Origin: Filimonas lacunae
GTDB lineage: Bacteria; Bacteroidota; Bacteroidia; Chitinophagales; Chitinophagaceae
Direction of reading: 5' to 3'
NCBI RefSeq assembly: GCF_002355595.1
Contig: NZ_AP017422.1
Location: forward strand, 620,001-684,000
DNA length: 64,000 bases
A model generated the notes under the pieces. The model was not told the origin of the DNA, did not search any database, and saw only the letters and a list, made by a program, of their open reading frames with translations. Shown here piece by piece: positions 14,769 to 39,126 of this stretch. The position numbers and the translations under genes were made by a program. The first letter of the stretch is position 1; every line of letters begins with the position of its first letter.

Positions 14769-14789
14769 TACTAATCAAGATAAACGAGT

Positions 14790-21555: not shown

Positions 21556-21623
21556 GTTTATCATAAACAGGACTAAGCGCAAGCCTGTTAAGGAAGCCCG
21601 GATGAGCTGGCTGGAACGTAACA

Positions 21624-21652
21624 AAAAACAGGATTTTGAGAATCCTGTTTTT
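21624..21652 (+). terminator. Terminator inside the IS3 element downstream of OrfB
   Basis: AAAAACAGGATT (21624-21635), TTGAG loop, AATCCTGTTTTT (21641-21652): a perfect 12-bp stem with its own T-run. The rest of 21556-21796 holds no ORF. Confidence 0.7.
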
Positions 21653-21796
21653 GACAGCAGGTTTATGCGCTCATCCTGACAGATCAGGATAGGATCACTG
21701 AGACCCCTGTAAACTGATGTTAGAATTAAATTTTATCTTGCAACAACTACTTATTATTAACTGCTCTCTACTGTCAAGTTTTTTTAGGACGGGTCA

Positions 21797-22200
21797 CTGG
21801 TGACGAATTTTACAGCTATAGGGATCTTCCCCATGACTTCCTCACTCCACGGGGAAGTAGTAGCGATCATCCCCATAGTAGTGGCGATGAGTTTTACAGC
21901 TATGGGGATCATCCTTATGACTTCCTCACTCCATGGGGAAGTAGTGGCGATCATCCCCATAGTAGTAGTGACGAATTTTACAGCTATAGGGATCTTCCCC
22001 ATGACTTCCTCACTCCACGAGGAAGTAGTGGCGATCATCCCCATAGTAGTGGCGATGAGTTTTACAGCTATGGGGATCATCCTCATGACTTCCTCACTCC
22101 ATGGGGAAGTAGTGGGCACAAGTTCAATAGCACTGGTAACGAATTTTACAGTTATAAGGATCATACCTATAACTGCATGTATTTACTTTACTGCTATAAG
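21797..22200. repeat. 84-bp tandem repeat array (two alternating unit types) rich in inverted repeats
   Basis: Four exact 84-bp units: 21797-21880, 21881-21964, 21965-22048 and 22049-22132, plus a decayed fifth to about 22200. Units 1 and 3 (TGACGAATTTTACAGC type) alternate with units 2 and 4 (CGATGAGTTTTACAGC type), so the higher-order period is 168 bp. Each unit holds an inverted repeat such as CTTCCCC (21826-21832) with GGGGAAG (21851-21857). A second, ATCCCCATAG (21869-21878) with CTATGGGGAT (21900-21909), spans unit borders. Because 84 is divisible by 3, frames stay open on both strands, but the predicted peptides look non-coding. Confidence 0.93.
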
Positions 22201-22722
22201 AATCTGATTCATTCTCTTTTGTTGGCCGCCTGTTAACCTGGCGTGTGTTACCGTAACTGTCCTGCTTGTAACGCTGGTGAATAGAAGCTTTATCCTGTTG
22301 TAGTTAACTTTCGCTGCTCCCTGATTTTGCTACAAATGTTCCCCTTTGAGCAGGACACAGCAGGACAGTTGTGTTCTTTATCTATGATATCTTCGATTTC
22401 ATCAGGTACTACTTGCCCCCATTTTCAAGTGCCTGATAATTAACGATTGCCATTTTATAACTAAGAAGCTAATTGCAGTGCTATATGAAAAAGATAGAAA
22501 CTGTCCGTTGGAAGGGTAGTACGCCCTGTTCCTTATCCACTTGTATTTTATTGAATGAATTGTTGCCGCGACCGATGCGGGGTATTGTGTTTTACCCCTA
22601 ACGCATGCATACCCACAGGTAGGCAACACATATAACTGCTGCAAAAACAGCTGCTGCTGCCGTATGCCCATGCGTTAAGCTGACATATCATTTTTCTACT
22701 TACTTATTTACTGTTTACTATT
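22201..22722. other. 522-bp non-coding leader region before the pectin locus
   Basis: No convincing gene. It holds a perfect 12-bp inverted repeat AACTGTCCTGCT (22255-22266) / AGCAGGACAGTT (22359-22370), 92 bp apart, and a long stem-loop at 22599-22677. The region must contain the promoter of the fasciclin-SusCD operon, but no -33/-7 pair could be assigned with confidence. Confidence 0.6.
22599..22677 (+). promoter_or_regulatory. Candidate structured 5' leader element of the pectin locus
   Basis: Left arm TAACGCATGCATAC (22599-22612) pairs with GTATG-CC-CATGCGTTA (22662-22677) apart from a 2-base bulge, enclosing a 49-base loop with an inner GCTG/CAGC stem. It ends 45 bases before the first gene. 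A regulatory RNA structure or DNA operator is possible; it matches no riboswitch class known to me. Confidence 0.35.
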
Positions 22723-24987
22723 ATGAACAGAACCATTACCAGCGTATTGCTTGTAACGGCTGCCGTGTGCGCATTAGCAGGCTGCCGTAAAAAAGAATGG
22801 GACGAACATTACGAAAGACCCGCAACCCTGGAACCCCCTATTTACCAACAGCTGCAAGCAGCGGGTAAGTTTAAAAGCCTGCTTACCCTGATAGACAAAG
22901 GAGGGTACAAAGAAACACTTGCCAATGGAGGTTACTGGACATTGTTTGCACCTAATGACGAAGCGTTTACTACGTATCTGCAACAGATACACAAGTCATC
23001 GGCTGATGATATAGCTGATGATACTGCCCGTATGATAGTGCAGTATTTACTGGTGTATAACTCCTACACAAAAGCCAGGCTGGACGATTACCAGTCTACC
23101 GCCAGTGGTAGTGCAGGATGGATACCTTCTTCTGCTTTCCGCCGTCGTACTGCTTATTACTCCGGTTTTTATACCGATCATGATGCCAATGGACAAACCA
23201 TCACCGCTATTGCTAATAACCGCAACAGTTTGGCTGGTAGTGTAGCGGGTGGTTATATGTCAACTGATTATAATAATAAATATATTTCTTACTTTATAGA
23301 TGACTATTTTAATACGCATCAGTTAACTGCAACCGATTACAATTACTTCTACCCTCAAACGCAGTACACTGGTTTTAACGTTGGTGCAGCTAAAGTAGTA
23401 AGGCCAGATCTTGCAGCCGAAAACGGTGTAATACATGAGGTGGACAAAGTGCTTACACCGCAACCCAGCATAGATGAATATGTAAAAAATAAGCCGGAGT
23501 ACAGCAGCTTCTGGGCCATATTAAACAGGTTGAAACTGAACAATATGGTACAGTTTGCCTATAATGCCGATGCCACTAAACGGTATAATATATTAAAAGG
23601 TAACAACGATCAGGTATATGTTAAAGTATATAACTACCTGTTGTCTTTTTCACCTAACAACGAAAATCATTTAAAGGCAGAAGACAATGACGGCCAGAAA
23701 GATTGCTGGACTTTGTTTGTACCTGACAACGCCGCAGTAGATAAGTATGTAAAAGAAGTGCTTTGCGAATATTATCCCTCGTTGGATGCCGTGCCGGTGC
23801 AGGTAATAGCCGACTTCTTAAATGCACATATGTTTTCTACAGTGGTGTGGCCTACCCAGTTTGGAACTACACGCAACGGGGCAGGAGAGGAAGCGCGCTT
23901 TGATGCCAATGCAGATGTTACAGATAAACAGTTTTTAAGTAACGGTATTGTTTACGGCACCAATAAAGTACAGGAAGCCAATGTGTTTAGAACGGTATAT
24001 GGGAAAATGTATTTAAACCCTGCTTACCAGATGATGACCCGCTTACTGGATGTGTCGGGTCAGAAAGTAAAACTTACGCAGGCCAACACGCAGGCCACTT
24101 TATTGCTGATACCCGATACCGCTTTTCATACAGCGGGTTATTATTATAATACGGCCAAAAGTCAGTGGGAATACCGCACCCTGGCAGGAACTACTACCAA
24201 CGGGGTATATGATAAACTGGCGCGTATTGTAAGCACCTGTGTATTTATGGAACCTTATCGCAGCCAACTGGAAAGCCTGGCTGGTAAGGGCATTGTAAAA
24301 TCGGGTGATAATGGCATTGAAGGGGAGTATATCATTTATAATAATTACAATATTCAAACGGCTGCATTGGTAGAAACCGGTGCGGTGGCGCATGTAGACA
24401 GTAGTAAAACGGCCATGAATGGCAGAGTGTATTATCTCAACTCCCTATTGCCTTATTCCGAAAACAACATAGGATATCACATCCGGCGTATAGGAACTGA
24501 TGTCAATTCGCCTTTCAATTATTTCTGGCAATACCTGCAGAATTCACAAATATATACCGCTGCCACCAACCAGGTCACCGGGTTGACAGGTGGTTTTTAT
24601 ACTGTGTTTATACCAGATAAAGCGGCTATTGTAAAAGCGGTGAATGCCGGCTTGCTGCCAGGTACAGGCACAGCACCCAACAAAGTGCCCAACTTTGCAC
24701 CTACCTCAGCAGCTGATAAGCAATTGGTGCAAAACTTTATACAATATCATATACTGGAAAACCACACGGTGATACCGGATGGCGATGTAAGCGGCAAATT
24801 TGGTACTGTGTATAAAAATGCAGTAGGTACTTCGCTGCAAATAACCGTGTATAATTCGCCTGGTGCCATGCAAATAACCGACAACCGGGGCAGTGTATCC
24901 AACCTGGAGCTGGATAACAGCAACCAATTATCCAATCGTTGTGTGATTCACCTGATAGACAATTTTCTGAACTATAATGCCCAATAA
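22723..24987 (+). CDS. Multi-FAS1 (fasciclin) domain lipoprotein
   Basis: A 754-residue lipoprotein (lipobox ALAGC at 18-22, followed by RKKEWDEHYERP). It appears to contain four consecutive FAS1-like domains: about 39-250 (LLTLIDKGGYKETLANGGYWTLFAPND), 250-430 (CWTLFVPDNAAVDKYV), 430-605 (more degenerate, LLLIPDTAFHTAG) and 606-754 (GGFYTVFIPDKAAIVKAV). FAS1 domains mediate adhesion or protein/glycan contacts. First gene of the pectin locus, 16 bases before a SusC gene. Inferred role: surface glycan-binding subunit in the place that SusE/F-type proteins take in other loci. Domain borders are approximate. Confidence 0.8.
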   Translation: MNRTITSVLLVTAAVCALAGCRKKEWDEHYERPATLEPPIYQQLQAAGKFKSLLTLIDKGGYKETLANGGYWTLFAPNDEAFTTYLQQIHKSSADDIADDTARMIVQYLLVYNSYTKARLDDYQSTASGSAGWIPSSAFRRRTAYYSGFYTDHDANGQTITAIANNRNSLAGSVAGGYMSTDYNNKYISYFIDDYFNTHQLTATDYNYFYPQTQYTGFNVGAAKVVRPDLAAENGVIHEVDKVLTPQPSIDEYVKNKPEYSSFWAILNRLKLNNMVQFAYNADATKRYNILKGNNDQVYVKVYNYLLSFSPNNENHLKAEDNDGQKDCWTLFVPDNAAVDKYVKEVLCEYYPSLDAVPVQVIADFLNAHMFSTVVWPTQFGTTRNGAGEEARFDANADVTDKQFLSNGIVYGTNKVQEANVFRTVYGKMYLNPAYQMMTRLLDVSGQKVKLTQANTQATLLLIPDTAFHTAGYYYNTAKSQWEYRTLAGTTTNGVYDKLARIVSTCVFMEPYRSQLESLAGKGIVKSGDNGIEGEYIIYNNYNIQTAALVETGAVAHVDSSKTAMNGRVYYLNSLLPYSENNIGYHIRRIGTDVNSPFNYFWQYLQNSQIYTAATNQVTGLTGGFYTVFIPDKAAIVKAVNAGLLPGTGTAPNKVPNFAPTSAADKQLVQNFIQYHILENHTVIPDGDVSGKFGTVYKNAVGTSLQITVYNSPGAMQITDNRGSVSNLELDNSNQLSNRCVIHLIDNFLNYNAQ

Positions 24988-25002
24988 ACCAAAACAGCAA
25001 GT

Positions 25003-28000
25003 ATGAACATTCGATTACACTACATAATATATTGCTTGTTGCTGCTTTGTTGTTGTGGCATAACAGCCCATGCCCAGGACGCACAACAGGGAATTACCGT
25101 AACCGGTAAAGTAACCGATAAAGAAGGCAAAGGCATACACGGTGTATCTGTAACAGAGGTAGATGCAGATAAGCGTATTATCCGGGGTGTTAGCACCGAC
25201 GTGGATGGAAACTTTGCTATTCGCATTTCCAATGTAAAAAATAAGCTGGCCTTTTCTATCATTGGCTTCCAGGATGTAGAAGGCATGGCCATCAACAGCC
25301 GCAGAACATTTAACGTAAGCCTGCAACCAGGAAGCAAAAGCATGGAGGAAGTGATAGTGGTGGCACAGAAGAAAATTGATAACGGTATGCTGCCCGTGTC
25401 GGACAGGAACATGACCGTTGCTGCTGCTAAAATCAATGCCAAGGACATGGAGGAAATGCAGGCGGCTTCTATAGACCAGGCATTACAGGGCCGTGTTTCC
25501 GGTGTGGATATTGCTGCCAATTCCGGCGATCCCGGTGCAGGCATGCAAATACGTATCCGTGGCACCTCTTCCATCAACTCTTCTAACGATCCTTTGATTG
25601 TAGTGGATGGTATGCCTTACGAAACACAGATACCTACCGATTTTAACTTTGGTACGGCGGATGATCAGGGCTATGCGTCTTTATTAAACATTGCCCCGTC
25701 TGATATCAAAGACATTACTATTTTAAAAGATGCGGCCGCCACTGCCGTATGGGGTTCCCGTGCCGCCAATGGTGTGCTGGTGATCAATACCAAGCGTGGT
25801 GCTAAAGGCAAGCCTGTATTAAGTTACACATTCAAAGGTTCGTTGTCGGCCAAACCACAGGCTATTCCTATGCTCAATGGCTATCAATATGCCACCCTGG
25901 TACAGGAAGCCTATATGAACCGCAACGGGGTGCCCTTGAATACGCAAACCGTAAACGAGTTTAAATACGATCCCAACGATCCTTACTGGTATAAAAACTA
26001 CAGTAACAATACAGATTGGATCAAAGCTATTTCCAGGCTGGGTACTATACAGGATCACAACATTTCCATGACAGGCGGGGGCGATAAAGCCAGGTATTAT
26101 GCATCGCTGGGCTATTTTTCACAGGTGGGTGTTACCAAAGGAACGGATATGAAAAGAATTTCTACCCGTATCAACCTTGATTATAACGTATCGGACAGGT
26201 TGCGTTTCAGAACCGATCTTTCCTTTGCCTATACCAACAACAGCCGCAACTTTGTAAACTCGAAAGATGGGCAGGATAATATCCGTTCTATAGCCTATAC
26301 CAAAATGCCTAACATGGGTATTTATGAGTATGATGAATATGGCAATCTTACACCTAACTATTTTTCACCTGCTGTGAATATACAGGGTCAATATCCCAAC
26401 ACCTACAACCCGGTAGCCATGGCCAACTCAGCCGAAAACCGGATTATTACCCAGCGTGTGATACCCAAGTTTAATATTCAGTATAACCTGAAACCGGGAG
26501 TGTGGATGGCTACTATGGATGTGCAGTTTGATATCAGTGGCACAAAGAATAAACAATTTTTACCACAGATTGCTACCGGCCGTCCCTGGACAGAAGCTGT
26601 GGTAAACCAGGCCTACGATGGGGATAACGATGGTTTTAACGTGCAAACCAAAACCGCAGTAGTATATACGCCTAAGTTTAAAAATGACGATCATTCACTG
26701 GTAGCGTTGGCCAACCTGATGACGTATGATAACAAAAGTATCAGCTATCAGGCGCAAACCTCCAACACGCCTTCTTCCGATTTGCAGGACCCCTCTGTAC
26801 CATCCCGTGTAAATGGCGCCAACTCCAACCTGTCGGCTACCACCAAACAAACCCGCACAGCAGGCGCTTTGATCAACGCGCAATATGGTTATAAAGACAG
26901 GTATATGTTCAACGTAGGTATAAGGGGCGATGCCAATTCACGATTAGCACCTAATAACCGCTATGGCCTGTTTCCTTCGCTCTCTACCCGCTGGCGCATT
27001 TCGGGCGAGCCGTTTATGCAGCACACCAACAAATGGCTGGATGAATTGAGTTTACGTTTGAGCTACGGCCAAAGCGGTAATGCGCCTAAAAACGATTATA
27101 CCTACTACAATAAGTACAGCAATTTTGACTGGAACTACCTGGATGAATCGGGCATCTACTCTGCCAACATGAAGCTGAACAATCTGAAATGGGAAACCGT
27201 GATAGGGCAGAACCTGGGTGTTAACCTGGCTATGCTTAAAAACAGGGTGATAGTGGATGTGGAAGTATATCGCAACAGAACCAGGGACCTGTTTTTCTAT
27301 AACCTGCAAACAGCTGGTATCAACGGCTATAGCAAGGTAGATATGAACGTAGGCACCATGGACAACCAGGGATGGGAATTATCCATTAACACCGTGCCTT
27401 ATAAGAATAAGAAATGGCTGGTGGAATTCAATTTCAATATTTCGCGCAACGAAAACATGATACGTGAAATATCAGAATACTATCCCATTGAAAAAGGCAA
27501 TATCAGCACCAATGGACAATATAAAACCTATATGCAGGTGAACAACCCTTTTGGGTCTTTTTATGGATTCCGGTATAAAGGGGTGTATAAAGACCTGAGT
27601 GAAACCGTTGCCCACAATGAAAAAGGTGGTGCTATTACTACGCCATCCGGTCAGCCTGTTTATATGCGTTTTAACTATCCTGCTACAGATTATGTGTTTC
27701 AGCCCGGCGATGCGAAGTATGAAGACGTTAACCACGATGGCACTATCGATTACCGCGATATTGTTTACCTGGGCAACAGTAACCCCATGTTTACAGGTGG
27801 CTTTGGTTTGAATGTAGGATATGGCAATCTTAGACTGTCCAGCTTTTTCAGCTTCCGTTACAAATACAATATTGTAAATGCAACAGAAATGAAAAGCACC
27901 AGCATGTATAGCTACGATAACCAAAGCACTACGGTGCTGCAACGCTGGCGCAAAGAGGGTGATGTTACCAATGTGCCACGTGCTTTATTCCAGACAGGTT

Positions 28001-28281
28001 ATAACTGGCTGGGTAGCGACAGGTATGTAGAGAATGGTTCGTTCCTGCGCTTTAGAACAGTAACCCTGCGCTATACGCTGGAGAAAAGGCTGACGGATAA
28101 GCTACACATTAAAAGCCTGAGTAGCTACCTGACCGTAGAAAACCTGTTTACATGGACTAAATACACCGGACAGGACCCCGAAGTGAGTTTACGTGGCAGT
28201 GACCCATTCAGGGTAGCTACTGACAACTCTATGACGCCGCCGGTGAAAACGATAACATTGGGCTTAACGGCTTCTTTTTAA
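25003..28281 (+). CDS. SusC/RagA TonB-linked outer-membrane transporter (pectin locus, first pair)
   Basis: A 1092-residue importer with signal peptide (LLLLCCCGITAHAQ), CarboxypepD_reg domain at about 30-110 (VTGKVTDKEGKGIHGVSV), plug with SusC signature (LKDAAATAVWGSRAANGVLV) and a TonB-dependent barrel ending TLGLTASF. No STN domain, so it does not fit the FecR signalling type. Substrate is probably an oligogalacturonide or other pectin fragment, judged from the pectate lyase in the same gene run. SusD follows after 28 bases. Confidence 0.93.
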   Translation: MNIRLHYIIYCLLLLCCCGITAHAQDAQQGITVTGKVTDKEGKGIHGVSVTEVDADKRIIRGVSTDVDGNFAIRISNVKNKLAFSIIGFQDVEGMAINSRRTFNVSLQPGSKSMEEVIVVAQKKIDNGMLPVSDRNMTVAAAKINAKDMEEMQAASIDQALQGRVSGVDIAANSGDPGAGMQIRIRGTSSINSSNDPLIVVDGMPYETQIPTDFNFGTADDQGYASLLNIAPSDIKDITILKDAAATAVWGSRAANGVLVINTKRGAKGKPVLSYTFKGSLSAKPQAIPMLNGYQYATLVQEAYMNRNGVPLNTQTVNEFKYDPNDPYWYKNYSNNTDWIKAISRLGTIQDHNISMTGGGDKARYYASLGYFSQVGVTKGTDMKRISTRINLDYNVSDRLRFRTDLSFAYTNNSRNFVNSKDGQDNIRSIAYTKMPNMGIYEYDEYGNLTPNYFSPAVNIQGQYPNTYNPVAMANSAENRIITQRVIPKFNIQYNLKPGVWMATMDVQFDISGTKNKQFLPQIATGRPWTEAVVNQAYDGDNDGFNVQTKTAVVYTPKFKNDDHSLVALANLMTYDNKSISYQAQTSNTPSSDLQDPSVPSRVNGANSNLSATTKQTRTAGALINAQYGYKDRYMFNVGIRGDANSRLAPNNRYGLFPSLSTRWRISGEPFMQHTNKWLDELSLRLSYGQSGNAPKNDYTYYNKYSNFDWNYLDESGIYSANMKLNNLKWETVIGQNLGVNLAMLKNRVIVDVEVYRNRTRDLFFYNLQTAGINGYSKVDMNVGTMDNQGWELSINTVPYKNKKWLVEFNFNISRNENMIREISEYYPIEKGNISTNGQYKTYMQVNNPFGSFYGFRYKGVYKDLSETVAHNEKGGAITTPSGQPVYMRFNYPATDYVFQPGDAKYEDVNHDGTIDYRDIVYLGNSNPMFTGGFGLNVGYGNLRLSSFFSFRYKYNIVNATEMKSTSMYSYDNQSTTVLQRWRKEGDVTNVPRALFQTGYNWLGSDRYVENGSFLRFRTVTLRYTLEKRLTDKLHIKSLSSYLTVENLFTWTKYTGQDPEVSLRGSDPFRVATDNSMTPPVKTITLGLTASF

Positions 28282-28309
28282 TTACGCTGATTGTTTAAAT
28301 AGCTGTGCT

Positions 28310-29809
28310 ATGTTATATAACAAACGATACTTTGCCATTATACTGATACTGTTGCTTACCGGCACTACCTCGTGTAAGAAATGGTTTGACCTGAAACCTT
28401 CGGACGGTATTGTAAATGAAGACTACTGGAAAACAAAAGAAGATGTGCATGCTGCTGTAATAGGGGCCTATGCCTCTTTACTGGGCGATCCTGCCGGTAG
28501 TGATTCCCGCGACTTATCCGAAATTCTTTTTCTGTGGGGTGAATTGCGGGCCGATATGCTGGCGCCTTCCACCGGCACCAAGGCAGAAGACTACGAAGTA
28601 ATGAATATGAACACTTCGCCTGCCAACACCATCACCGATTGGAAGCCGTTGTACAGAACCATTAATTATTGTAACACCATATTAAGGAATGCCCCTGAGG
28701 TAATGAACCTGGATAAAACCTTAACACAGGATGTATTAAACGGTTACCTGGCCGAAGCTAAATCCTTACGTGCTTTACTCTACTTTTACCTGGTAAGAAG
28801 CTTTGGCGATGTGCCTTTGAAGCTGGAGCCCACCACCAGCGATGATGAAATTGTTACGTTGCCCAAAAGTACACAGCAGGAAGTGTTGCAACAGATTTTA
28901 GCTGATTTGAATGACGCGGAGAGCAAAGCCCTGTTAACCTATGGCGCACAGGCCAGCGATAAAGGGCGTATTACCCGCTATACCATCAATGCTATACAGG
29001 CAGATGTGTACCTGTGGATGGAACAATACAATGATGCCATTACCGCCTGCAACAAAGTGATAAACGCTAAAAAATTTGGATTGATCAGTGGTAGCACTGC
29101 CTGGTACAACACACTTTACTACAGTGGCAACTCCAACGAAAGCCTGTTTGAGTTCCAGTTCAATAAACAGAAGATTAATAACTTCCTGTACATGTTTTAT
29201 AATGTAAAACGATTTGTGGCTTCTACCGTGGTAATGGATCAGGTGTATTCCACAGAAAGTTTCAACAAAGACATACGTGGTGATGGCGCATCGGTAAGAG
29301 CTGCCGATAATCTCATCTGGAAGTATGTTGGTAAAAATGACAAGGATGTAAGAGCTACAGACGAGGCGTATGCACATTGGTTTGTATACCGCTATGCAGA
29401 TATTTTGCTGTTGAAAGCCGAAGCATTGGCGCAGTTGAAAACGGAAACGGCCTGTACAGAAGCGTTAAACCTGGTGTACACGATTCGCCAGCGTGCCAAT
29501 GCTTTACCGTCAACAGACAATGCGCCTTCTGCTGTTGATTTTGATGGTGTAGCCCGCTTTGTGCTGGAAGAGCAGGCCAGGGAACAGATGTATGAGGGTA
29601 AACGCTGGTATAACCTGCTGCGTTTTGCCAAACGCAATAACTACGCACACCTGGATGTATTGCTGGACCTGGTATCGGTAACGGTTCCGTTGAATATGAT
29701 GAACTCGGCCAAAGCCAAAATAAGAGATTACAACAGCCATTATTTTCCCATATATCAATATGAACTGCAAACCAATAAAAGCCTGGTGCAGAACCCATTC
29801 TATAAATAG
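28310..29809 (+). CDS. RagB/SusD-family lipoprotein (pectin locus, first pair)
   Basis: A 499-residue surface lipoprotein with a lipobox-like end of the signal peptide (LLLTGTTSC). It has SusD_RagB features: YLAEAKSLRALLYFYLVRSFG, RITRYTINAIQADVYLW, and the C-terminal EQAREQMYEGKRWYNLLRFA and FPIYQYELQTNKSLVQNPFYK. Partner of the preceding SusC. A FAS1 lipoprotein gene follows 16 bases later. Confidence 0.92.
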   Translation: MLYNKRYFAIILILLLTGTTSCKKWFDLKPSDGIVNEDYWKTKEDVHAAVIGAYASLLGDPAGSDSRDLSEILFLWGELRADMLAPSTGTKAEDYEVMNMNTSPANTITDWKPLYRTINYCNTILRNAPEVMNLDKTLTQDVLNGYLAEAKSLRALLYFYLVRSFGDVPLKLEPTTSDDEIVTLPKSTQQEVLQQILADLNDAESKALLTYGAQASDKGRITRYTINAIQADVYLWMEQYNDAITACNKVINAKKFGLISGSTAWYNTLYYSGNSNESLFEFQFNKQKINNFLYMFYNVKRFVASTVVMDQVYSTESFNKDIRGDGASVRAADNLIWKYVGKNDKDVRATDEAYAHWFVYRYADILLLKAEALAQLKTETACTEALNLVYTIRQRANALPSTDNAPSAVDFDGVARFVLEEQAREQMYEGKRWYNLLRFAKRNNYAHLDVLLDLVSVTVPLNMMNSAKAKIRDYNSHYFPIYQYELQTNKSLVQNPFYK

Positions 29810-29825
29810 TAAAACATTGCTTGTT

Positions 29826-31481
29826 ATGAAAAAGATGATTACACTGGCAGTGATTGCCATTACGATGCTGGTAATAATTTCAGTACAAAGCTGTAAGAAA
29901 ACAGACCTGGTAGAATCTACTACCACTGATGTAAACATACTGGCTTACCTGAAGCAATTTCCTGATCAGTTTTCCAGCCTGGTAAACATTATCGACAAAG
30001 TGGGCTATAGCGACTTTTTAAATGCTTATGGCACTTATACCTTATTTGCGCCCACCAACGCTGCCGTTAAAACCTGGCTGCAACAGAAAGGAAAGGGCAG
30101 CATTGATCAGATGGATGCAGACGAACTGAAAGGTTTGTTGAAATTGCATTTACTGGAAGAAGTAGTGAACACCAGCAATTTTACCGATGGTAAGTTACCG
30201 GCTGCCACTATGTATGGTCAATACCTGATAACGGGAGTGGCTAATAAAGAGGGCTCTTCTTCTTACATTGTAAACCGTCAGGCTTATATCACACAGCCTA
30301 ACATTACAACAGGTAACGGGGTGATACAGGTAATTGATGGCGTGTTAACACCGGCACAATACAGCGTGGCCCAGTTGCTGGAGCAAGACGCTTCTTTCTC
30401 TATATTCCTGCAGGCAGTAAAAGAAACAGGTTATTACGATACGCTGAATGTGGTACAGCAGGGGGATGTGCGCAAATGGTATACTTTGATTGCAGAAAAC
30501 AACCAGGCCCTGGCAGATTCTGGCTACAGCAGCTATGCGGCGTTAAAAGCCAGGTATTGCAACACCGGCGATCCTAAAAATGCGGTGGATAGTTTGCATC
30601 TGTTTGTGGCTTACCACATATTACCTGATATCAAATACCTGGCAGATATTGTGATGGCTGGCTCGCACGAAACACTGGCTCCATTGGAAGTGATCACCGA
30701 TAAAGTGGTGAATCAACAGGTATTGCTGAATGATGATGAGTTTAATGGTGAGCATGAGCAGGGAGTATTGATTGATCAGGCCAGCAGTGACGTTTCAGCC
30801 ACTAACGGCGTATTGCATCGTGCCACTGCACACCTGCCTATGAAGTTGCGCAGTCCCTTCCCCGTATACTGGGATTTAGCTCAGTTTCCTGAGTTAACCC
30901 GTCTGGCGGCATACTACCGCAAAGCCAATTATGTATTCGAGTATGGAAGTGATATAGCAGATGTTAAATGGGAAAAAGGTAGCCTTACCTATCAGAATGG
31001 TAAAAGCGGTTTCCTGGGCGATTATCTGCAAATACAACTCGGCACCAGCAGCAGCGGATCTTGGATTGAATTTACTACACCGTTACTGGTAAAAGGAAAA
31101 TATAAAGTATGGTTCTGTTACCGTCAGGAAGCATCGGGTGGTGATAAAAACGTTACCTGCCAGGTAAGCTTCGACTCTGTGCCGTTAACCAGCGCCCTGG
31201 TTCAATTCCATGTGAAGAACTCTACGGTAGATGCTGCTAAAGATGCAGAGCAGGAAGCACTTGGCTGGAAATGTTACATGGTGCCAGCTGCTGGTTTTGC
31301 AGTAGGACGCATGGTGGGTATTGTTGATGTAAAAGTAACCGGAAGGCATAAACTAAAGCTTTCTGTAGCCGCAGGCAGCAACGGTACCAACGATATGGAT
31401 ATGGTACACTTTATTCCGGTAGGTGCGAACCAGATATATCCAAGGTTTAAAACAGACGGTACCCTTGTTACCACCCCTTAA
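29826..31481 (+). CDS. FAS1-domain lipoprotein with C-terminal beta-sandwich
   Basis: A 551-residue lipoprotein (lipobox ISVQSC). ATG at 29826 is used; the frame runs upstream into the SusD end without a signal sequence. Two FAS1 domains: about 30-180 (VGYSDFLNAYGTYTLFAPTNAAV .. TTGNGVIQVIDGVLTP) and 180-350 (ending ATNGVLHRATAHLP). Residues from about 370 form a separate all-beta region (NYVFEYGSDIADVKWEKGSL .. GRHKLKLSVAAG) that resembles the galactose-binding/CBM-like or DUF5108 modules found with FAS1 domains in Bacteroidota. This would suit glycan binding at the cell surface; the CBM identity is a suggestion only. Confidence 0.78.
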   Translation: MKKMITLAVIAITMLVIISVQSCKKTDLVESTTTDVNILAYLKQFPDQFSSLVNIIDKVGYSDFLNAYGTYTLFAPTNAAVKTWLQQKGKGSIDQMDADELKGLLKLHLLEEVVNTSNFTDGKLPAATMYGQYLITGVANKEGSSSYIVNRQAYITQPNITTGNGVIQVIDGVLTPAQYSVAQLLEQDASFSIFLQAVKETGYYDTLNVVQQGDVRKWYTLIAENNQALADSGYSSYAALKARYCNTGDPKNAVDSLHLFVAYHILPDIKYLADIVMAGSHETLAPLEVITDKVVNQQVLLNDDEFNGEHEQGVLIDQASSDVSATNGVLHRATAHLPMKLRSPFPVYWDLAQFPELTRLAAYYRKANYVFEYGSDIADVKWEKGSLTYQNGKSGFLGDYLQIQLGTSSSGSWIEFTTPLLVKGKYKVWFCYRQEASGGDKNVTCQVSFDSVPLTSALVQFHVKNSTVDAAKDAEQEALGWKCYMVPAAGFAVGRMVGIVDVKVTGRHKLKLSVAAGSNGTNDMDMVHFIPVGANQIYPRFKTDGTLVTTP

Positions 31482-31501
31482 TTCACTATTAATTGAACAG
31501 T

Positions 31502-33004
31502 ATGCGATACGGAAAATATTATTGGTGGCTGCTCCTTTTTACAGGCTTCATTGCCTGTAAAAAGTGGAGCGACCACACGGAAGTAAAAGAACAGGCGTTG
31601 AACCAGGATTTAATGGAACAGATAAGCAGTCGCAGCAATCTTAGTCTTTTTAAAACCTACCTGGTGAAAACAGGGCTGGATAAAGAATTAACCGCTTCTA
31701 AAAACTTTACAGTTTTTGCCCCGGTAGATGCTGTATTAAAGAACCTGGATGCAGCAGTAGTGAACAATACCGACAGTTTGCGCAAGGTGCTGTTAAACCA
31801 TATTGCCGGCCAGCTGTATTTTACCCGCATGGCCAATGACTCGGTAAGAGCCTATATGCTGAATGGAAAGCGCGTGTTTTTTTACCAGCAACACTTTGAT
31901 GATGCTAACATTACTGAGGGAGATATTTATGTAAAGAATGGGGTGCTACAGATTATTGATAAAGTGGTGCCGCCATTACCTAACGCCTGGCAACTGATAG
32001 ATAGTTTGCAGGATGTGTATGCGCAAAATGCTTACATAGCGCGGTTAACTTACCAGAAGCAAGACCCCACCAAAGCGGAAGTAGACAGTATTAACCCTAT
32101 TACAGGGGAAATTGTATACAAACCCGGCACTGGCATTGTAACGGTAAATACTTTTACCGATAAGGTATACAACCTGGATAATGAAGATAGCCTGTATACT
32201 TACCTGGTACTGGATGATAATGCATACGCTACAGAAAAAACGCGTCAGAAGCCTTTTTTCAAAAGCACAGATGCTGTTATTACAGAAGGGAATGCTGCCT
32301 GGAATGTTGTGAAAGATCTGGCCATAAAGGGGCTGTACAGTATAGATAAGCTGCCTGATACATTGCTTTCTAAATTCAATGTGCGTGTGCCCGTTTCAAA
32401 AGCCAATATCGTTGCCACGCATAAAGTAAGCAATGGAATTGTATATGTGTTAAGCGCCAGCGCCAGTCCCATGAAAGATAAGATACCGGAATGTATTGTG
32501 CAGGGCGAAAATCCTTTTGCATTTAAAGGAGATGTAATATCCAAAACCTTTTATCGCATACGCAACAATCCAAACACCGGTAAGTCATTTAACGATATGT
32601 ATATTCAAAGCCCTGGTGCTTCGTTCTATGTAGAATACATTACCAATGAAGTGTACACGGCCAAATACAAGGTGTATTGGGTGGCGTTAAGCGATTATAC
32701 CTACCGTACAGATAATGATGATTATACCTACGGCACTACCACTGCGTTTCAACAGCGGCTGGCAATGGATTCCAGTGCCAATGCCACTTCACTACCTTAT
32801 ACAGCGGTGAATCCCTACACTTACACAGAAACTTACCTGGGCGAGTATACAAAGGGCAGTTACGACTTTCCTATTTATATCCTGAACAGGTTGAGCGGTA
32901 ATGTAGTTACACCAGCCACGGTACATATGTATTTAACAGCTGCCGCTTCTACCCCTAACTATTTAAGTCTGGATTATATAAAACTGGTTCCTGTATTAGA
33001 ATAA
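31502..33004 (+). CDS. FAS1-domain lipoprotein
   Basis: A 500-residue lipoprotein (lipobox FIAC, then KKWSDH). ATG at 31502 is preferred to the TTG at 31493. One clear FAS1 domain spans about 35-160 (FKTYLVKTGLDKELTASKNFTVFAP .. YVKNGVLQIIDKVVPPLPN). A degenerate second follows to about 330 (VSKANIVATHKVSNGIVYVL). The C-terminal 150 residues are all-beta and end in LSLDYIKLVPVLE, a closing strand similar in style to the previous gene (MDMVHFIPV). The two adjacent proteins are probably distant duplicates. Spacing of 20 bases on each side places it in the same operon. Confidence 0.75.
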   Translation: MRYGKYYWWLLLFTGFIACKKWSDHTEVKEQALNQDLMEQISSRSNLSLFKTYLVKTGLDKELTASKNFTVFAPVDAVLKNLDAAVVNNTDSLRKVLLNHIAGQLYFTRMANDSVRAYMLNGKRVFFYQQHFDDANITEGDIYVKNGVLQIIDKVVPPLPNAWQLIDSLQDVYAQNAYIARLTYQKQDPTKAEVDSINPITGEIVYKPGTGIVTVNTFTDKVYNLDNEDSLYTYLVLDDNAYATEKTRQKPFFKSTDAVITEGNAAWNVVKDLAIKGLYSIDKLPDTLLSKFNVRVPVSKANIVATHKVSNGIVYVLSASASPMKDKIPECIVQGENPFAFKGDVISKTFYRIRNNPNTGKSFNDMYIQSPGASFYVEYITNEVYTAKYKVYWVALSDYTYRTDNDDYTYGTTTAFQQRLAMDSSANATSLPYTAVNPYTYTETYLGEYTKGSYDFPIYILNRLSGNVVTPATVHMYLTAAASTPNYLSLDYIKLVPVLE

Positions 33005-33023
33005 CGCGACTAAATTATTGATT

Positions 33024-36000
33024 ATGCTATTGAAACAGTCTGCCCTGGTTACGCTTTTACTTTTGTGCTGCCTTAGCCTGCATGCACAAAAGGATAAAGC
33101 AGTAAAAGGGCGTATTACAGATGCTACTACAGGAAACCCCTTACGCGGTGTAAGAATCAGTTATAAAGAACTCACCGCTGCTATTACAGACAGTGTGGGC
33201 AATTTTACCATACAGGTGCCTTCTTACGATGTATCGATACATGTGGAAAGTGAAGGCTACCAGGCGAAAGAAATTGCATTGAAAGGGAAAAGCCAGGTTA
33301 CTGCTGCATTATATGAAACGGACTATACCTCTTTTTACAGTGATATCACTATCCCTTTTACACGTACCTCACGCTCGGCCGTAGCAGGTGCTGCCACCAG
33401 CATTACTGCGAATGATACCTGGGGTGCAGCGCCCGAAACACCGGATTCGTATTTGCAGGGTAAAGTGGCAGGTTTAAACGCCATTCGCCGGTCCGGCACA
33501 CCAGGCATGGGCGCAAACCTGTTCTTGCGTGGTTTTACTTCCCTGTATGCCACCAACCAGCCTTTAATTGTGGTGGACGGAATTATATTCGATATTGACA
33601 ATTATGGTTCTTCGTTGGTAAATGGTTACTACAACAATCCTTTATCGTTAATAGACCTGCGTGATATAGATAATATTACCGTATTAAAAGACGGAGCATC
33701 TGTATATGGTACTAAAGGAGCCAACGGTGTAATATTGATTACCACCGCCAGGGCCCGGCAGGAAGCCACTAAAATAGATGTGGCTTTATATGGAGGTGTA
33801 AACGTGGCACCTGCTACCATGCCGGTAATGAATGCCGCAGATTACAGGATTTACTTATCAGAGATGCTGCAATCACAGGGCCTTACCGGTAATCAGATTC
33901 AGGCATTGCCTTATATGAATGATGATAAAACCAGTCCTGATTATTATCCCAATCATTATCAAACCAACTGGCAAAAACAGGTATTGCATAACAGTGCTGT
34001 ACAAAATTTGTACATGAAAATAACCGGCGGTGATAATATTGCGCGGTATGGCTTATCGGTTGGGTTCTTAAAAAATAATGGTGTAATAAAAAGCACAGGC
34101 CTTAGCCGTTATAACATGCGTTTTAACGGTGATTTTAACCTTAGCAAAAAGCTGACAGCTACTGCTAACCTGGGCTTTACTTACTACGAGCAGCAACTCA
34201 AGAACATGGGTATAGATGCACATACCAATCCGTTATTGACGGCATTGGTAAAGTCGCCGTTTTTACCTATTCACGAAGTAGCAGCAAGTGGTGCAGAATC
34301 GCCCAATCTGGCCGATGCAGATGTGTTTCATGTAAGCAACCCTACAGCATTGATACAAAGCATGAGTGCGCAAAACAAAAGCTATCGTTTTAGTGGCAGC
34401 ATCAATTTTAATTACCAGCTAACAAGGCAAATAGCATTGAGTACTGCAATAGGTGTTACCATGGATAAAAGCCGGGAAACATTTTTTGTGCCACAAAAAG
34501 GGGTAGTAAGTGATACACTCGAAAATGCGGTGGCTAAAAACAGGTCAGGCGCACAGGTGATAAGAATGTTCAGTTTGTTTAACGATACACGCCTGACGTA
34601 TTCCAATGTGTTTCAACGTAAACACACCCTGAGTGCAAGATTGGGTGTGCGTTACCTGAAAGGCGAAGCCGAGCAGGATTATGGCCTGGGCTATAACGCC
34701 GCAACCGATAAGTTAACCGGCATCGGATACGGTCTTAATTCGTTGCGTCGCATTGGGGGAAGTATAGGCGACTGGAAATGGGTCAACGGGTATGCGAATG
34801 TTGATTACAACCTGTCGGGCAAATACTTTCTGTCGCTGAACGTAGCTGCCGATGCATCTTCCCGCTTTGGTAGCAATACCGGCACGCCGGTAATGCCTTC
34901 ATTGTCTGCGGCCTGGTTGCTTTCTTCCGAAAACTTTATGGCAGGCACTACCTGGCTGGATATGTTGAAACTACGTGCCTCGGCTGGTAAAACCGGTAAT
35001 GATGATATTGGCAATTTTACTGCCCGCAAATATTATGTATCTCAAAACCTGTTAGGTGTATCTGGCCTGGTAAGAGGTAACACCGGTAACCCTAACCTGC
35101 AATGGGAAGCGGTTACCCGTCTGAACGCCGGTGTAGACATTGCTATACTGAACGAACGTGTAAGCATGAGTGCAGATGTATACACCAGCAAAACCAATAA
35201 GATGATCGTGTACGAACCAGCCACCACAGTAAGTGGCATGGATTACATTGTTACCAACAGCGGTGCTATGAAAACCAATGGTTGGGAACTGGCTATGAAT
35301 GCACGTATTATTAATAACAAATCGCTGAAATGGGATATGGGTTTTACCCTTTCGCATTATACCAGCAAGGTTACTCAACTGCCTGTAGATGCCATTGAAA
35401 CCGCTTATGCAGATGGTGCTTATATTACCCGTGCAGGCGGGGCGCCCAATCTCTTTTATGGTTATAAAACAGCAGGTGTATACAGCTCTGATGCGCAGGC
35501 AGCTTCAGAAGGTTTGATGAATAAAATGTCGGATGGTAGTTACAAAGCTTTTGCCGGAGGGGATGTTCGCTTTGCAAACACAACTACTGATGATAAAAAT
35601 ATTGATGCCGGCGACAGGCAGGTAATTGGCAACCCTAACCCAAAATATACCGGTGGTATTACTTCCCGCGTAGTATGGAAACAATGGTCGCTCGACGCCT
35701 TGTTCACCTTTAGTCAGGGTAATGATATTTATAACTACACCCGCCGCCAGCTGGAATCTATGTCAGGCTATGCGAACCAGCTCAGTTCAGTAAACAACAG
35801 GTGGCGCAACAACGGGCAGCAAACCAATATGCCTAAAGCTACCTGGGGCGATGCTATGGGTAACAGCCGCTTTAGCGATCGTTGGATAGAAGACGGTTCC
35901 TACTTCCGTTTAAGGAACGTAAACATCGCTTATAACGTGCCGCTGCCATCTGGTTTTGTAAAGAATATGACGGTATATGCTTCTGCCACCAACCTGTTTA

Positions 36001-36128
36001 CGCTTACAAAATACCTGGGCTACGATCCTGAATTTGATGCCACCAGCAGCGTATACGGGCAGGGCGTAGATGTAACGCTTACGCCATTGTATAAGACTTT
36101 TCAAATGGGTGTGAGGTTAGGATTATAA
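33024..36128 (+). CDS. SusC/RagA TonB-linked outer-membrane transporter (pectin locus, second pair)
   Basis: An importer of about 1034 residues. ATG at 33024 is used (MLLKQSALVTLLLLCCLSLHAQ, signal peptide); an in-frame TTG at 33018 is less likely. CarboxypepD_reg domain at about 27-100 (VKGRITDATTGNPLRGVRI). The plug has a shortened SusC box (LKDGASVYGTKGANGVILIT) and the barrel ends FQMGVRLGL. It is distinct enough from the first SusC of the locus to suggest a different oligomer size or substituent. No STN domain. Confidence 0.92.
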   Translation: MLLKQSALVTLLLLCCLSLHAQKDKAVKGRITDATTGNPLRGVRISYKELTAAITDSVGNFTIQVPSYDVSIHVESEGYQAKEIALKGKSQVTAALYETDYTSFYSDITIPFTRTSRSAVAGAATSITANDTWGAAPETPDSYLQGKVAGLNAIRRSGTPGMGANLFLRGFTSLYATNQPLIVVDGIIFDIDNYGSSLVNGYYNNPLSLIDLRDIDNITVLKDGASVYGTKGANGVILITTARARQEATKIDVALYGGVNVAPATMPVMNAADYRIYLSEMLQSQGLTGNQIQALPYMNDDKTSPDYYPNHYQTNWQKQVLHNSAVQNLYMKITGGDNIARYGLSVGFLKNNGVIKSTGLSRYNMRFNGDFNLSKKLTATANLGFTYYEQQLKNMGIDAHTNPLLTALVKSPFLPIHEVAASGAESPNLADADVFHVSNPTALIQSMSAQNKSYRFSGSINFNYQLTRQIALSTAIGVTMDKSRETFFVPQKGVVSDTLENAVAKNRSGAQVIRMFSLFNDTRLTYSNVFQRKHTLSARLGVRYLKGEAEQDYGLGYNAATDKLTGIGYGLNSLRRIGGSIGDWKWVNGYANVDYNLSGKYFLSLNVAADASSRFGSNTGTPVMPSLSAAWLLSSENFMAGTTWLDMLKLRASAGKTGNDDIGNFTARKYYVSQNLLGVSGLVRGNTGNPNLQWEAVTRLNAGVDIAILNERVSMSADVYTSKTNKMIVYEPATTVSGMDYIVTNSGAMKTNGWELAMNARIINNKSLKWDMGFTLSHYTSKVTQLPVDAIETAYADGAYITRAGGAPNLFYGYKTAGVYSSDAQAASEGLMNKMSDGSYKAFAGGDVRFANTTTDDKNIDAGDRQVIGNPNPKYTGGITSRVVWKQWSLDALFTFSQGNDIYNYTRRQLESMSGYANQLSSVNNRWRNNGQQTNMPKATWGDAMGNSRFSDRWIEDGSYFRLRNVNIAYNVPLPSGFVKNMTVYASATNLFTLTKYLGYDPEFDATSSVYGQGVDVTLTPLYKTFQMGVRLGL

Positions 36129-36154
36129 ACAAATTGAATACTGAAACGAAGTAT

Positions 36155-37855
36155 ATGAAATTATCTAAGTATATACTGTTAGCGTTGTTGCTGCCAGCTT
36201 TACTGGCCGGTTGTAAAAAGCTGGTAGAAACAGAGCCTAAAGACGTGCTGGACGAAAAGGAAATGTACAATGATGTGTACGATGCCGATGCTGCTGTAAT
36301 GGGGTTGTACGGTAAGCTTATGGGCCTGGCCGAACGTTATGTGGTGTTGAACGAACTGCGTGCCGATTTAATGAGTACTACCATAAATGCCAGTCAATAC
36401 CTGAATCAGTTAAATGAACATGGGCAGATCAGTTCGGATAACCCATACACCAGCCCACGTCCGTTTTACGAAGTGATTGTTAACTGCAATGATATCTTGT
36501 ACAACCTGGATATTATGCGTAAAGACAAAAAGCTGAAAGAAGACCAGTACAGCGCCCGCTACTCGGATGTAGCGGCCCTGCGTGCCTGGGTGTATTTGCA
36601 GGTGGGTATTCACTTTGGTAACATTCCTTACATCACCAGCCCTTTATCTAACGTCAATGATCTGGCAGGTATTGAGCAAATGCCCCGCATTCCTTTTGCG
36701 CAATTGCTGGATAGCTTAATAGCTTCGGTAAATGCTTTGCCTACACTCAACGATTATCCTTCCGGAACCAGCCTGACTACTACAGTAGATGGTTATGTAA
36801 CCAACAAATTCTTTATCAATAAACAAGTGGTAAAAGGAGAGTTGTATTTATGGCGTGGTAAAGGAACGGATTACACTACAGCTGCCGCTGCTTTTAAAAC
36901 CGTATTGGAATCAGGAGGCACGGGAGAGTTTGATAAATACCGCCTGCGCTATGCGGATATAGTAAATCATAAAGATTTATCGGTAGGCTATGTGCGTTAC
37001 CGGGAATGGGATGAAACCCAGCTGATCAACAATAATTCCCAGGGCTGGCGCAGTATTTTTGCCCGTAGCCAGGATGATATGTTTAACTGGGAATGGGTAT
37101 GGTTTCTGCCTTTTAGCTCCGATTTCGCGCCCACCAATCCTTTCATCAACCTGTTCTCCAATCGTGGAGGTAGTTACCTGTTAAAGCCTTCGCAGGCTGC
37201 CATTGATAAATGGAACAGCCAGGTGCAGAAAAATGAATTACCTTACGATGCAAGAGGTAAAGTGTTTACCTGGCAAAACCTGGATGGCCAACCCGTAATT
37301 ATGAAGTATTTGTACAACTACCTGGATGAAACTTCTTTCACTCCCATTAGCCTGTTGCAGAAAAACGGAAAATGGTTTTTGTACCGTGCTGCTTCACTGC
37401 ACCTGGATTTTGCAGAAGCGGCCAACAGGGATAACCAGCACACGGTTGCCTATGCTTTATTAAACCAGGGGATCAACCTTACCTTTGGCGGACAAACCGC
37501 ATCAGCTGCTCCTTATTATTTTGATGGTCGTACACTTTCTACACCTACCTATTATGGCGACTGGTATAGAAACCGTGGTGTACGTGGCCGTGCCATGTTG
37601 AAATCGACAGAAGTAACGGGAGACAGCACGCTTGCTATCGAAAGCAGTATTATTAACGAAGCTGCGCTGGAATTGGCCTATGAAGGCCGCCGCTGGCCCG
37701 ACCTGGTGCGTATTGCATTAAGAAGAGATGATCCTGCATTCCTTGCAGATAAAGTATACGCCAAGCTGTTAAAGGACAATAACCCGCAGGCCGCCGCCGT
37801 TCGCACTAAACTATTAAATAAAGAAAACTGGTACTTACCTTTCAAATGGAAATAA
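36155..37855 (+). CDS. RagB/SusD-family lipoprotein (pectin locus, second pair)
   Basis: A lipoprotein of about 566 residues with ATG at 36155 and lipobox LLAGC (then KKLVETEPKDVLDEKEMYN). SusD-type motifs: YSDVAALRAWVYLQVGIHFG, ELYLWRGKGTDYTTAAAAF and the C-terminal EAALELAYEGRRWPDLVRIA. It ends KENWYLPFKWK, and its last 10 bases overlap the start of the pectate lyase gene, which indicates tight coupling of binding protein and enzyme. Confidence 0.92.
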   Translation: MKLSKYILLALLLPALLAGCKKLVETEPKDVLDEKEMYNDVYDADAAVMGLYGKLMGLAERYVVLNELRADLMSTTINASQYLNQLNEHGQISSDNPYTSPRPFYEVIVNCNDILYNLDIMRKDKKLKEDQYSARYSDVAALRAWVYLQVGIHFGNIPYITSPLSNVNDLAGIEQMPRIPFAQLLDSLIASVNALPTLNDYPSGTSLTTTVDGYVTNKFFINKQVVKGELYLWRGKGTDYTTAAAAFKTVLESGGTGEFDKYRLRYADIVNHKDLSVGYVRYREWDETQLINNNSQGWRSIFARSQDDMFNWEWVWFLPFSSDFAPTNPFINLFSNRGGSYLLKPSQAAIDKWNSQVQKNELPYDARGKVFTWQNLDGQPVIMKYLYNYLDETSFTPISLLQKNGKWFLYRAASLHLDFAEAANRDNQHTVAYALLNQGINLTFGGQTASAAPYYFDGRTLSTPTYYGDWYRNRGVRGRAMLKSTEVTGDSTLAIESSIINEAALELAYEGRRWPDLVRIALRRDDPAFLADKVYAKLLKDNNPQAAAVRTKLLNKENWYLPFKWK

Positions 37856-39093
37856 AAGCAGTAGTTATAACAGCAGTATTATTGTGTACAAAAGCATGGG
37901 CTCAATTACCCGCCTTCCCCGGTGCATCCGGCTTTGGCGCCGCAGCAAGCGGTGGCAGGGGAGGTGAAGTGTATCATGTTACCAATTTGCAGGATAGCGG
38001 CTATGGAACGTTCCGCGATGCGGTAAGCAAGCCCGACAGGACAATTGTATTTGACACCTGCGGCATCATCACTATTAATGATAAAATAAAGGCATCCCCC
38101 CGCCTTACCATTGCAGGACAAACTGCCCCGGGCGATGGCATTGTAATATATGGCAATGGTGTTTCTTTTGCCTCTAACACCATTGTTCGTTATCTGCGCT
38201 TCCGGGGAAGCAGCAGCATGCCACGTGGGGCCTGCACAGTGGTGGCCGATGACCTGGAAGATATCATCTTCGATCACGTATCTATTCAATGGGGACGCTG
38301 GGATAACCTGCATTTGAAAAATAGTTCCCGCGTTACCTTTCAGCATTGCCTGATAGGCGAGAGCATTGACCCGCAACGTTTCGGTGCTTTATTCGAAGGC
38401 CCTACCAACGTTACCGTGCATCATTGCCTGTGGATAGATAACCAAAGCCGAAACCCCAAAGCAAAAGCCGGCATAGAGTACATCAACAACGTAGTATACA
38501 ACTGGGGGGTGAATGGCCTCGTTGGTGGACACTCCGCCGAAAATCATTACCAGGACGTGATCAATAACTACTTCATCGCCGGCCCACAAAGCACCGATAA
38601 GTTTATTGGCATGTTCTCCGGCACCGATCACGTATACCACACCGGTAATTTTGCTGATCTCAACAAAAATGGCAAACTGGATGGCCGCCTGGTAATAGAC
38701 ACAGATTTTGTATCTGCCACTGCAACACTACTACCACAACCCACCCATAAAGCCCCCATTAAAGTAAAAGTGCAGGATGCTTCCAGTGCTTATACAGAAG
38801 TATGCAAACAAGCCGGTGCATCTTTGCGTCGCGATGGCGTTGATACCCGTATTATCTCATATCTAAAGTCGCTGGGAACAACAGGAGAAATCTTCCGCAC
38901 CGACTCCGCTGCGGGTGGATTAGTGCCGTTGAAAACGGCTGCTGCTTTAGCTGACACAGATAAAGACGGTATTCCTGATAAATGGGAGCGTGTAATGAAG
39001 CTAAACGAAAAAGACCCCACAGATGCGAATAAAAAGAACGCAGAGGGCTACACGAATATTGAACGGTATTTTAATGAGTTGCTATTGAACTAA
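37846..39093 (+). CDS. Pectate lyase, polysaccharide lyase family 1-like, secreted
   Basis: A 415-residue enzyme expected to cleave homogalacturonan by calcium-dependent beta-elimination. Signal peptide MEIKAVVITAVLLCTKAWAQ. A right-handed beta-helix (Pec_lyase_C) covers about 22-290: GFGAAASGGRGGEVYHVTNL, TRTIVFDTCG-like strand (DRTIVFDTCGIITI), LTIAGQTAPGDGI, DDLEDIIFDHVSIQWG, and HHCLWIDNQSRNPKAKAG with the Asn-Pro step near the catalytic region. The C-terminus has a calcium-type TSP3-like motif (ADTDKDGIPDKWERVMKL). Start overlaps SusD by 10 bases. It is the only carbohydrate-active enzyme visible in the locus and identifies pectin as the likely substrate. No T9SS domain. Confidence 0.88.
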   Translation: MEIKAVVITAVLLCTKAWAQLPAFPGASGFGAAASGGRGGEVYHVTNLQDSGYGTFRDAVSKPDRTIVFDTCGIITINDKIKASPRLTIAGQTAPGDGIVIYGNGVSFASNTIVRYLRFRGSSSMPRGACTVVADDLEDIIFDHVSIQWGRWDNLHLKNSSRVTFQHCLIGESIDPQRFGALFEGPTNVTVHHCLWIDNQSRNPKAKAGIEYINNVVYNWGVNGLVGGHSAENHYQDVINNYFIAGPQSTDKFIGMFSGTDHVYHTGNFADLNKNGKLDGRLVIDTDFVSATATLLPQPTHKAPIKVKVQDASSAYTEVCKQAGASLRRDGVDTRIISYLKSLGTTGEIFRTDSAAGGLVPLKTAAALADTDKDGIPDKWERVMKLNEKDPTDANKKNAEGYTNIERYFNELLLN

Positions 39094-39100
39094 ATGTAAA

Positions 39101-39126
39101 AAGCCTGCTGTGAAGCAGGCTTTTTT
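39101..39126 (+). terminator. Terminator of the pectin operon
   Basis: AAGCCTGC (39101-39108), TGTGAA loop, GCAGGCTT (39115-39122), then T-run, 8 bases after the pectate lyase stop. Confidence 0.88.

Follow-up and report, generated by a model that had tools for sequence, protein, structure and literature searches.

Three fasciclin-domain lipoproteins and two SusCD pairs form a conserved seven-gene cassette in a probable pectin-uptake operon of Filimonas lacunae

The Filimonas lacunae genome (7.81 Mb, a single contig) was examined at bases 620001-684000, a stretch of 64,000 nucleotides that we call the window and to which all positions refer unless given as genome positions. Here eight open reading frames (ORFs) on one strand (22723-39093) encode three lipoproteins with fasciclin (FAS1) domains (FASa, FASb, and FASc), two SusC-SusD pairs, and a lyase of the polysaccharide lyase (PL) 1 superfamily (Table 1). 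We consider it fairly probable that these eight genes make up one operon for the uptake of pectin oligosaccharides across the outer membrane, in which FASb and FASc would bind glycans and FASa would serve as spacer or bridge. The initial annotation of the window had described the series FAS1-SusCD-FAS1-FAS1-SusCD-PL1 with tight spacing, and precisely this layout was recovered at the same positions, with gaps, in gene order, of 15, 28, 16, 11, 13, 5, and -10 bases. The first seven genes, FASa-SusC1-SusD1-FASb-FASc-SusC2-SusD2, constitute a cassette whose four-fold duplication, invariant order, and joint divergence were established by computation, as were the operon layout, the lipoboxes, the predicted folds, and the pectin-related neighbours.

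A FAS1 search of the F. lacunae genome, with the loci read, located the cassette four times (copies A to D; copy A is the locus studied). Gene by gene, the best paralogue of each copy within this genome is only 36-60% identical. The only rearrangement of the cassette that was seen occurs in copy C, where FASb precedes FASa and all seven genes are retained. Scanning 84,980 species genomes with a FASb alignment returned 183 relatives; the loci of the 80 highest-ranking ones were read, and these stem from Chitinophagales, Sphingobacteriales, and Cytophagales. Wherever the contig was long enough (67 foreign loci), the identical seven-gene order was present, while the remaining 13 of the 80 were partial (short contigs or contig ends) with the visible genes still in order. 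With the seven-gene order repeated in 67 of 67 foreign loci, the arrangement exceeds chance; the survey of FAS1-SusD neighbourhoods in Bacteroidota that the initial annotation had proposed as a check thus did reveal a conserved neighbourhood. The genes flanking the cassette vary freely between loci. When 69 cassettes are compared, the distances between homologues of any one of the seven proteins track those of the other six (correlations of 0.79-0.90, against a permuted maximum of 0.20).

Both adjacent SusC-SusD pairs pass the curated Pfam and NCBIfam cut-offs (TIGR04056 for SusC, with a cut-off of 368 bits; PF07980 and PF14322 for SusD), as is characteristic of a SusCD-type polysaccharide utilization locus (PUL). 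The pairs are indeed different, as first annotated: the SusC1 and SusC2 families score ca. 320 bits against each other versus ca. 1450-1520 bits within SusC1, and hence are distinct subfamilies. An STN domain was not found in SusC1 by Pfam. The carbohydrate-active enzyme (CAZyme) that completes such a locus is the PL1-superfamily lyase, whose gene overlaps SusD2 by 10 bases. Its profile scores are weak (PF00544 below cut-off; NCBIfam PelZ 81 bits versus a cut-off of 840), and phmmer links it to a solved pectate lyase (Table 1). The lyase lies outside the invariant cassette, yet still comes next after SusD2 in several foreign loci; its cluster counts 13 homologues among the flanks of the cassette, nine of them directly after SusD2.

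All three FAS1 proteins exceed the PF02469 cut-off of 22 bits (99.7, 97.8, and 58.1 bits), and all three are lipoproteins encoded beside SusCD, which is one hallmark of surface glycan-binding proteins (SGBPs). Their lipobox cysteine is invariant in FASa (Cys21, in 60 homologues) and FASb, and nearly invariant in FASc. The FAS1 lipoproteins share with the SusD proteins a C-K-K-x-acidic start that is compatible with their export to the cell surface, without proving it. Aligning the family profile of FASa to FAS1 with hhalign placed FAS1 domains at residues 38-252 (interrupted by an insert), 243-412, 423-573 (a weak match), and 569-741; in this comparison, made with sequence profiles and not with a predicted structure, no carbohydrate-binding module (CBM) or other non-FAS1 domain appeared. 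FASa probably acts as a spacer or bridge. For FASb and FASc we built AlphaFold2 (AF2) models with 68 and 73 aligned homologues as input, obtaining mean pLDDT (predicted local distance difference test) values of 90.3 and 91.7, respectively, and a predicted TM-score (pTM) of 0.85 for FASc. Each model comprises two FAS1 domains, matching those of TGFBIp and periostin with Z about 19-22, followed by a C-terminal beta-sandwich (ca. 341-532 in FASb and ca. 332-501 in FASc). In the models this sandwich adopts the fold of the CBM6/35/36 clan (Z 9.4-13.7, about 118-132 residues aligned). The best match of the FASb domain is the binding module MiXBM (7ehg; Z 13.3, root-mean-square deviation 2.4, 132 residues aligned), with CBM6 (2cdp) at Z 10.1 and CBM35 and CBM36 at Z about 9.4-9.7; Foldseek added a Clostridium thermocellum CBM35 (1.5e-5) and the CBM35 2w47, solved with delta-4,5-anhydrogalacturonic acid (4.5e-5). 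The FASc domain is closest to CBM6 (2cdp; Z 13.7, root-mean-square deviation 2.4, 123 residues aligned), then to MiXBM (Z 13.2), CBM36 (ca. 12.4), and CBM35 (ca. 11.9). In FASc, D494 is invariant (73 of 73 sequences) and E339 is conserved in at least 90%; we take the two to resemble the structural calcium site of this clan. Judged by these predicted folds, FASb and FASc are probably SGBPs, and the models favour the earlier suggestion that the FAS1 lipoproteins serve as glycan-binding or scaffolding parts.

The pectin setting noted in the initial annotation extends well beyond the lyase. Clustering of the genes around the 80 loci yielded PL1, PL11 rhamnogalacturonan lyase, and the glycoside hydrolase (GH) groups GH28, GH88/105, GH106/PL22, GH2, GH51, and GH43. 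Using profiles of the five most pectin-specific clusters (PL1, PL11, GH28, GH105, and GH106/PL22), pectin CAZymes were found in 34 of 64 long cassette loci versus 4 of 40 control SusD loci of the same family (Fisher p 7e-6), a comparison that leans towards the cassette because the profiles were built from its own flanks. The result is unchanged at a relaxed threshold, and the control loci carry twice the flanking coding DNA (9.9 versus 4.9 kb). In F. lacunae itself, copy B is followed by genes of the GH28, GH105, UxaB, UxaA, UxaC, KduD, KduI, and KdgK types; genes for GH28, GH105, and galacturonate catabolism thereby lie 23-36 kb upstream of the copy A operon. An MFS transporter gene stands at the start of the window.

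Besides the leaning of the control test, several points weigh against pectin-oligosaccharide uptake with FASb and FASc as its glycan binders. No Pfam CBM model matches either protein up to E 0.1. Jelly-roll folds are widespread among proteins, and Cry-toxin domains score near the CBMs for FASb (Z 9.4-9.6), so that function cannot be deduced from fold alone. The pectinolytic activity of the lyase is a prediction from sequence. Copies C and D have no adjoining galacturonan or rhamnogalacturonan enzyme of the tested clusters (upstream of copy C there is one GH51-like and one GH43-like match, and a GH95 gene lies beyond copy D), and some flanks of the cassette contain GH2, GH43, or GH51. For these last two reasons the substrates may differ between the cassette copies. 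The unit might even import glycans other than galacturonan more generally, such as plant glycoproteins or side chains rich in rhamnose, arabinose, or galactose, and the pectin enzymes would then be frequent only since pectin contains these sugars. This would agree with the state of copies C and D, with GH2, GH43, GH51, and GH106 as frequent neighbours in a set of enzymes that varies between loci, and with a distant six-gene FAS1-SusCD variant that adjoins sialidase-like genes. We nevertheless think it unlikely, as no specific neighbours are commoner than PL1, PL11, GH28, and GH105, which also stand beside copies A and B.

The FAS1 domains of TGFBIp, periostin, and fasciclin I, the solved relatives of those described here, serve adhesion, and the three lipoproteins might be adhesion or matrix proteins that serve attachment (cell-cell or cell-wall) and, though encoded in one operon with a transporter, take no part in uptake. 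Among 55 Bacteroidota FAS1 loci, SusCD neighbours were seen only in the cassette (three loci), in one six-gene variant, and in about two looser cases, a fraction that is only a guide because the loci were chosen mostly by FAS1 score and three of them by FASb matches; a FAS1 gene was absent from all 40 control SusD loci. We therefore rejected the FAS1-SusCD association as a general rule for FAS1 proteins. Because most other Bacteroidota FAS1 proteins are not near SusCD, the association belongs to the cassette FAS1 subfamily; the fixed place of FAS1 beside SusCD, claimed at the outset, holds for the cassette (67 foreign loci and four own copies, with FASb moved in copy C) and fails for FAS1 proteins at large. 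That most Bacteroidota FAS1 genes lack a SusCD neighbour also suits adhesion. Such a role is nonetheless quite improbable for the cassette proteins, given their constant positions among the two SusCD pairs of 67 loci, the joint divergence, the CBM-type domain predicted in FASb and FASc, and the pectin enzymes in the flanks.

The six-gene variant reads FAS1(648)-SusC-SusD-FAS1(482)-SusC-SusD, has two sialidase-like genes with BNR repeats behind it, and apparently applies the FAS1-SusCD principle to a different substrate; its second FAS1 protein was sought in 151 genomes of its order and is carried by only two. In F. lacunae a second FAS1 cluster lies at 2.496-2.513 Mb, with three FAS1 lipoproteins, a SusC-like barrel, a DUF4397 protein, an OMP_b-brl_4 barrel, a TIG/NHL protein, and genes of 199 and 331 aa that resemble an extracytoplasmic function (ECF) sigma factor and FecR. 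Its part at 2.504-2.508 Mb was tried as a further member of the cassette family and rejected, since its SusC-like barrel, DUF4397, and TIG/NHL protein come without a SusD match.

Cassettes that share one genome (copies A to D of F. lacunae; those of Niastella, Pontibacter, and Botryobacter) have diverged widely in every one of the seven genes, and six of the seven genes of copy B have their nearest relative in one and the same foreign locus; the cassette is thus passed on mostly as a unit. FASb is present in 26 of 149 genomes of the host family. In a sample of 148 genomes across the phylum, full-length FASb occurs in three genomes besides F. lacunae, and all three carry the whole cassette. A plasmid collection searched with the FASb DNA gave no match. 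That the seven genes are linked solely because the cassette spreads ready-made, its products never touching, would fit four copies in one genome and the patchy presence in the family, but is very improbable, as the strict internal order over deep divergence with freely changing flanks better fits a functional unit and the rearranged copy C still has all seven genes. Two foreign genomes deserve mention: [Flexibacter] sp. ATCC 35208 has two cassettes that seem identical and face opposite ways on a single contig (a recent inverted duplication or an assembly artefact), and in Arachidicoccus ginsenosidivorans the genes for FASa, SusC1, and SusD1 are split into two or three ORFs apiece while FASb-FASc-SusC2-SusD2 is intact (decay or sequencing errors).

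In the uptake of pectin oligosaccharides as it probably proceeds, the core would be a unit of seven proteins, in which three FAS1 lipoproteins at the surface accompany two SusCD importers of different kinds. In FASb and FASc, two FAS1 domains on a lipid anchor would form a stalk that holds the CBM6/35/36-type head off the membrane to catch pectic chains, whereas FASa, with about four FAS1 domains and no CBM, would hold the unit together. The lyase would cut galacturonan outside the cell; the two SusD lids and SusC barrels would then import the (probably unsaturated) oligosaccharides, the pairs taking in different or successive fragments, and the GH28, GH105, and galacturonate-catabolism products encoded upstream would complete the breakdown. 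Surface exposure, glycan binding, physical complex, substrate, and division of labour between the SusCD pairs are what we infer in this scheme.

Neither a hybrid two-component system (HTCS) nor an ECF/FecR match was found among the operon genes, and the statement in the initial annotation that a local regulator is missing stands for the locus studied. It does not extend to the family: an HTCS-type regulator lies directly upstream of FASa in eight foreign loci, and in copy D a histidine kinase and an AraC response regulator are encoded there as separate genes. These encode a sensor kinase with a Reg_prop propeller (1053 aa) and an AraC-type regulator (260 aa), and represent either a split HTCS or a frameshift where related loci hold a single HTCS-type gene. 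The sigma/FecR set at 3.3-9.8 kb of the window is part of a different SusCD locus. This separate ECF/FecR-type locus (1950-15932) contains a sigma factor, TonB-C/CarboxypepD proteins, FecR, a SusCD pair, and a DUF4369-thioredoxin protein.

The non-coding leader in front of FASa presumably holds the promoter. Downstream, 4 bases past the stop codon of the lyase gene, a hairpin followed by a T-rich stretch makes it plausible that the operon ends there, as it probably does; this hairpin is the strongest in its region, where the total hairpin count is at chance level. Within the operon, matches to internal promoters or terminators were no more numerous than expected by chance. Directly upstream of the leader (20201-22207) lie an IS3-type transposase pair and then a repeat tract open on both strands.

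Table 1. Features of the F. lacunae operon (window positions) and copies of the cassette
Feature	Position	Strand	Description and evidence
Non-coding leader	22208-22722	+	515 bases upstream of FASa; presumed promoter region
FASa	22723-24987	+	Lipoprotein, ca. 4 FAS1 domains; PF02469 99.7 bits
SusC1	25003-28281	+	TonB-linked SusC/RagA barrel; TIGR04056 766 bits, Pfam
SusD1	28310-29809	+	Lipoprotein lid; PF07980 8.3e-26, PF14322
FASb	29826-31481	+	Lipid anchor C23, FAS1 + FAS1 + predicted C-terminal CBM6/35/36-type beta-sandwich; PF02469, AF2, Foldseek, VIA-align
FASc	31493-33004	+	Lipid anchor, FAS1 + FAS1 + predicted C-terminal CBM6/35/36-type beta-sandwich; PF02469, AF2, Foldseek, VIA-align
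SusC2	33018-36128	+	Second SusC/RagA barrel; TIGR04056 643 bits
SusD2	36134-37855	+	Lipoprotein lid; PF07980 1e-8, PF14322 2.9e-6
PL	37846-39093	+	PL1-superfamily beta-helix lyase, last operon gene; phmmer to pectate lyase 9buj 1.7e-25
Intrinsic-terminator-like hairpin	39098-39125	+	12 pairs, then T-rich; 4 bases past lyase stop
Copy A	22723-37855	+	Locus studied
Copy B	genome 589640-604872		Ends 38 kb before start of copy A
Copy C	genome 1756373-1771510		FASb moved to front
Copy D	FASa ends at genome 3827032	minus	Cassette read in own genome

SusE and SusF are lipoproteins encoded beside SusCD that have carbohydrate-binding beta-sandwich domains. FASb and FASc resemble them in being lipoproteins encoded beside SusCD with a predicted beta-sandwich, and differ in their stalk of FAS1 domains and in the CBM6/35/36 type of that domain; Pfam SusE or SusF matches are absent from the operon proteins up to E 0.1. 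The earlier remark that no SusE/F-like protein is present is accurate as far as Pfam goes, yet gives a wrong impression, since FASb and FASc have CBM-like domains and, if the models are right, probably fill the SusE/F role in this locus. To the CBM6/35/36 clan (e.g. CBM35 2w47) they are tied by the predicted fold of their C-termini, unlike clan members in an identity of only about 7-20% and in having no Pfam CBM match; solved structures searched by sequence returned FAS1 relatives only and none for these domains. In Bacteroides xylanisolvens and B. ovatus, single pectin PULs combine two susC/D-like systems with PL1 lyases and with pectin CAZymes (PMC4769552). They share with our locus the two SusCD systems and PL1 lyase, whereas the cassette locks both pairs and three FAS1 lipoproteins in a fixed order, and the words "Fasciclin" and "FAS1" are absent from that paper. 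A figure legend for a Gramella PUL labels one gene "FAS1 domain protein" (PMC4891872); there, too, a FAS1-domain gene lies inside a polysaccharide locus with SusD, but as a figure-legend annotation, with no double-SusCD cassette or role in the text. Two susC/D systems in a pectin locus and a FAS1 gene in a PUL are thus already known, while for the cassette, or for FAS1 proteins as SGBPs, no description was found in open-access full texts, subscription papers being outside this search. One family of bacterial FAS1 proteins hereby gains a concrete, testable candidate role in glycan capture, which would fill a blank in those pectin loci that, in Bacteroidota from soil and fresh water, seemingly lack SusE/F. 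In the levan and dextran utilisomes of B. thetaiotaomicron, accessory lipoproteins assemble on a SusCD core (PMC7618045, doi 10.1038/s41586-023-06146-w). Our cassette likewise has a SusCD core encoded with lipoproteins for surface glycan capture and an enzyme, but has a second, different SusCD pair and, as its lipoproteins, three proteins built of FAS1 domains. By analogy with these utilisomes, seven proteins in one order and with joint divergence suggest one complex, and so rigid a gene set is well suited to asking whether two different SusCD transporters act as one machine. More tentatively, and in our view only as a possibility, SusC1D1 and SusC2D2 might sit side by side, bridged by FASa and flanked by two FAS1-CBM capture arms. 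Known SusCD complexes contain one SusCD pair; such a hetero-double transporter, if it exists, would amount to a utilisome with seven distinct components in which FAS1 domains act as the structural glue.

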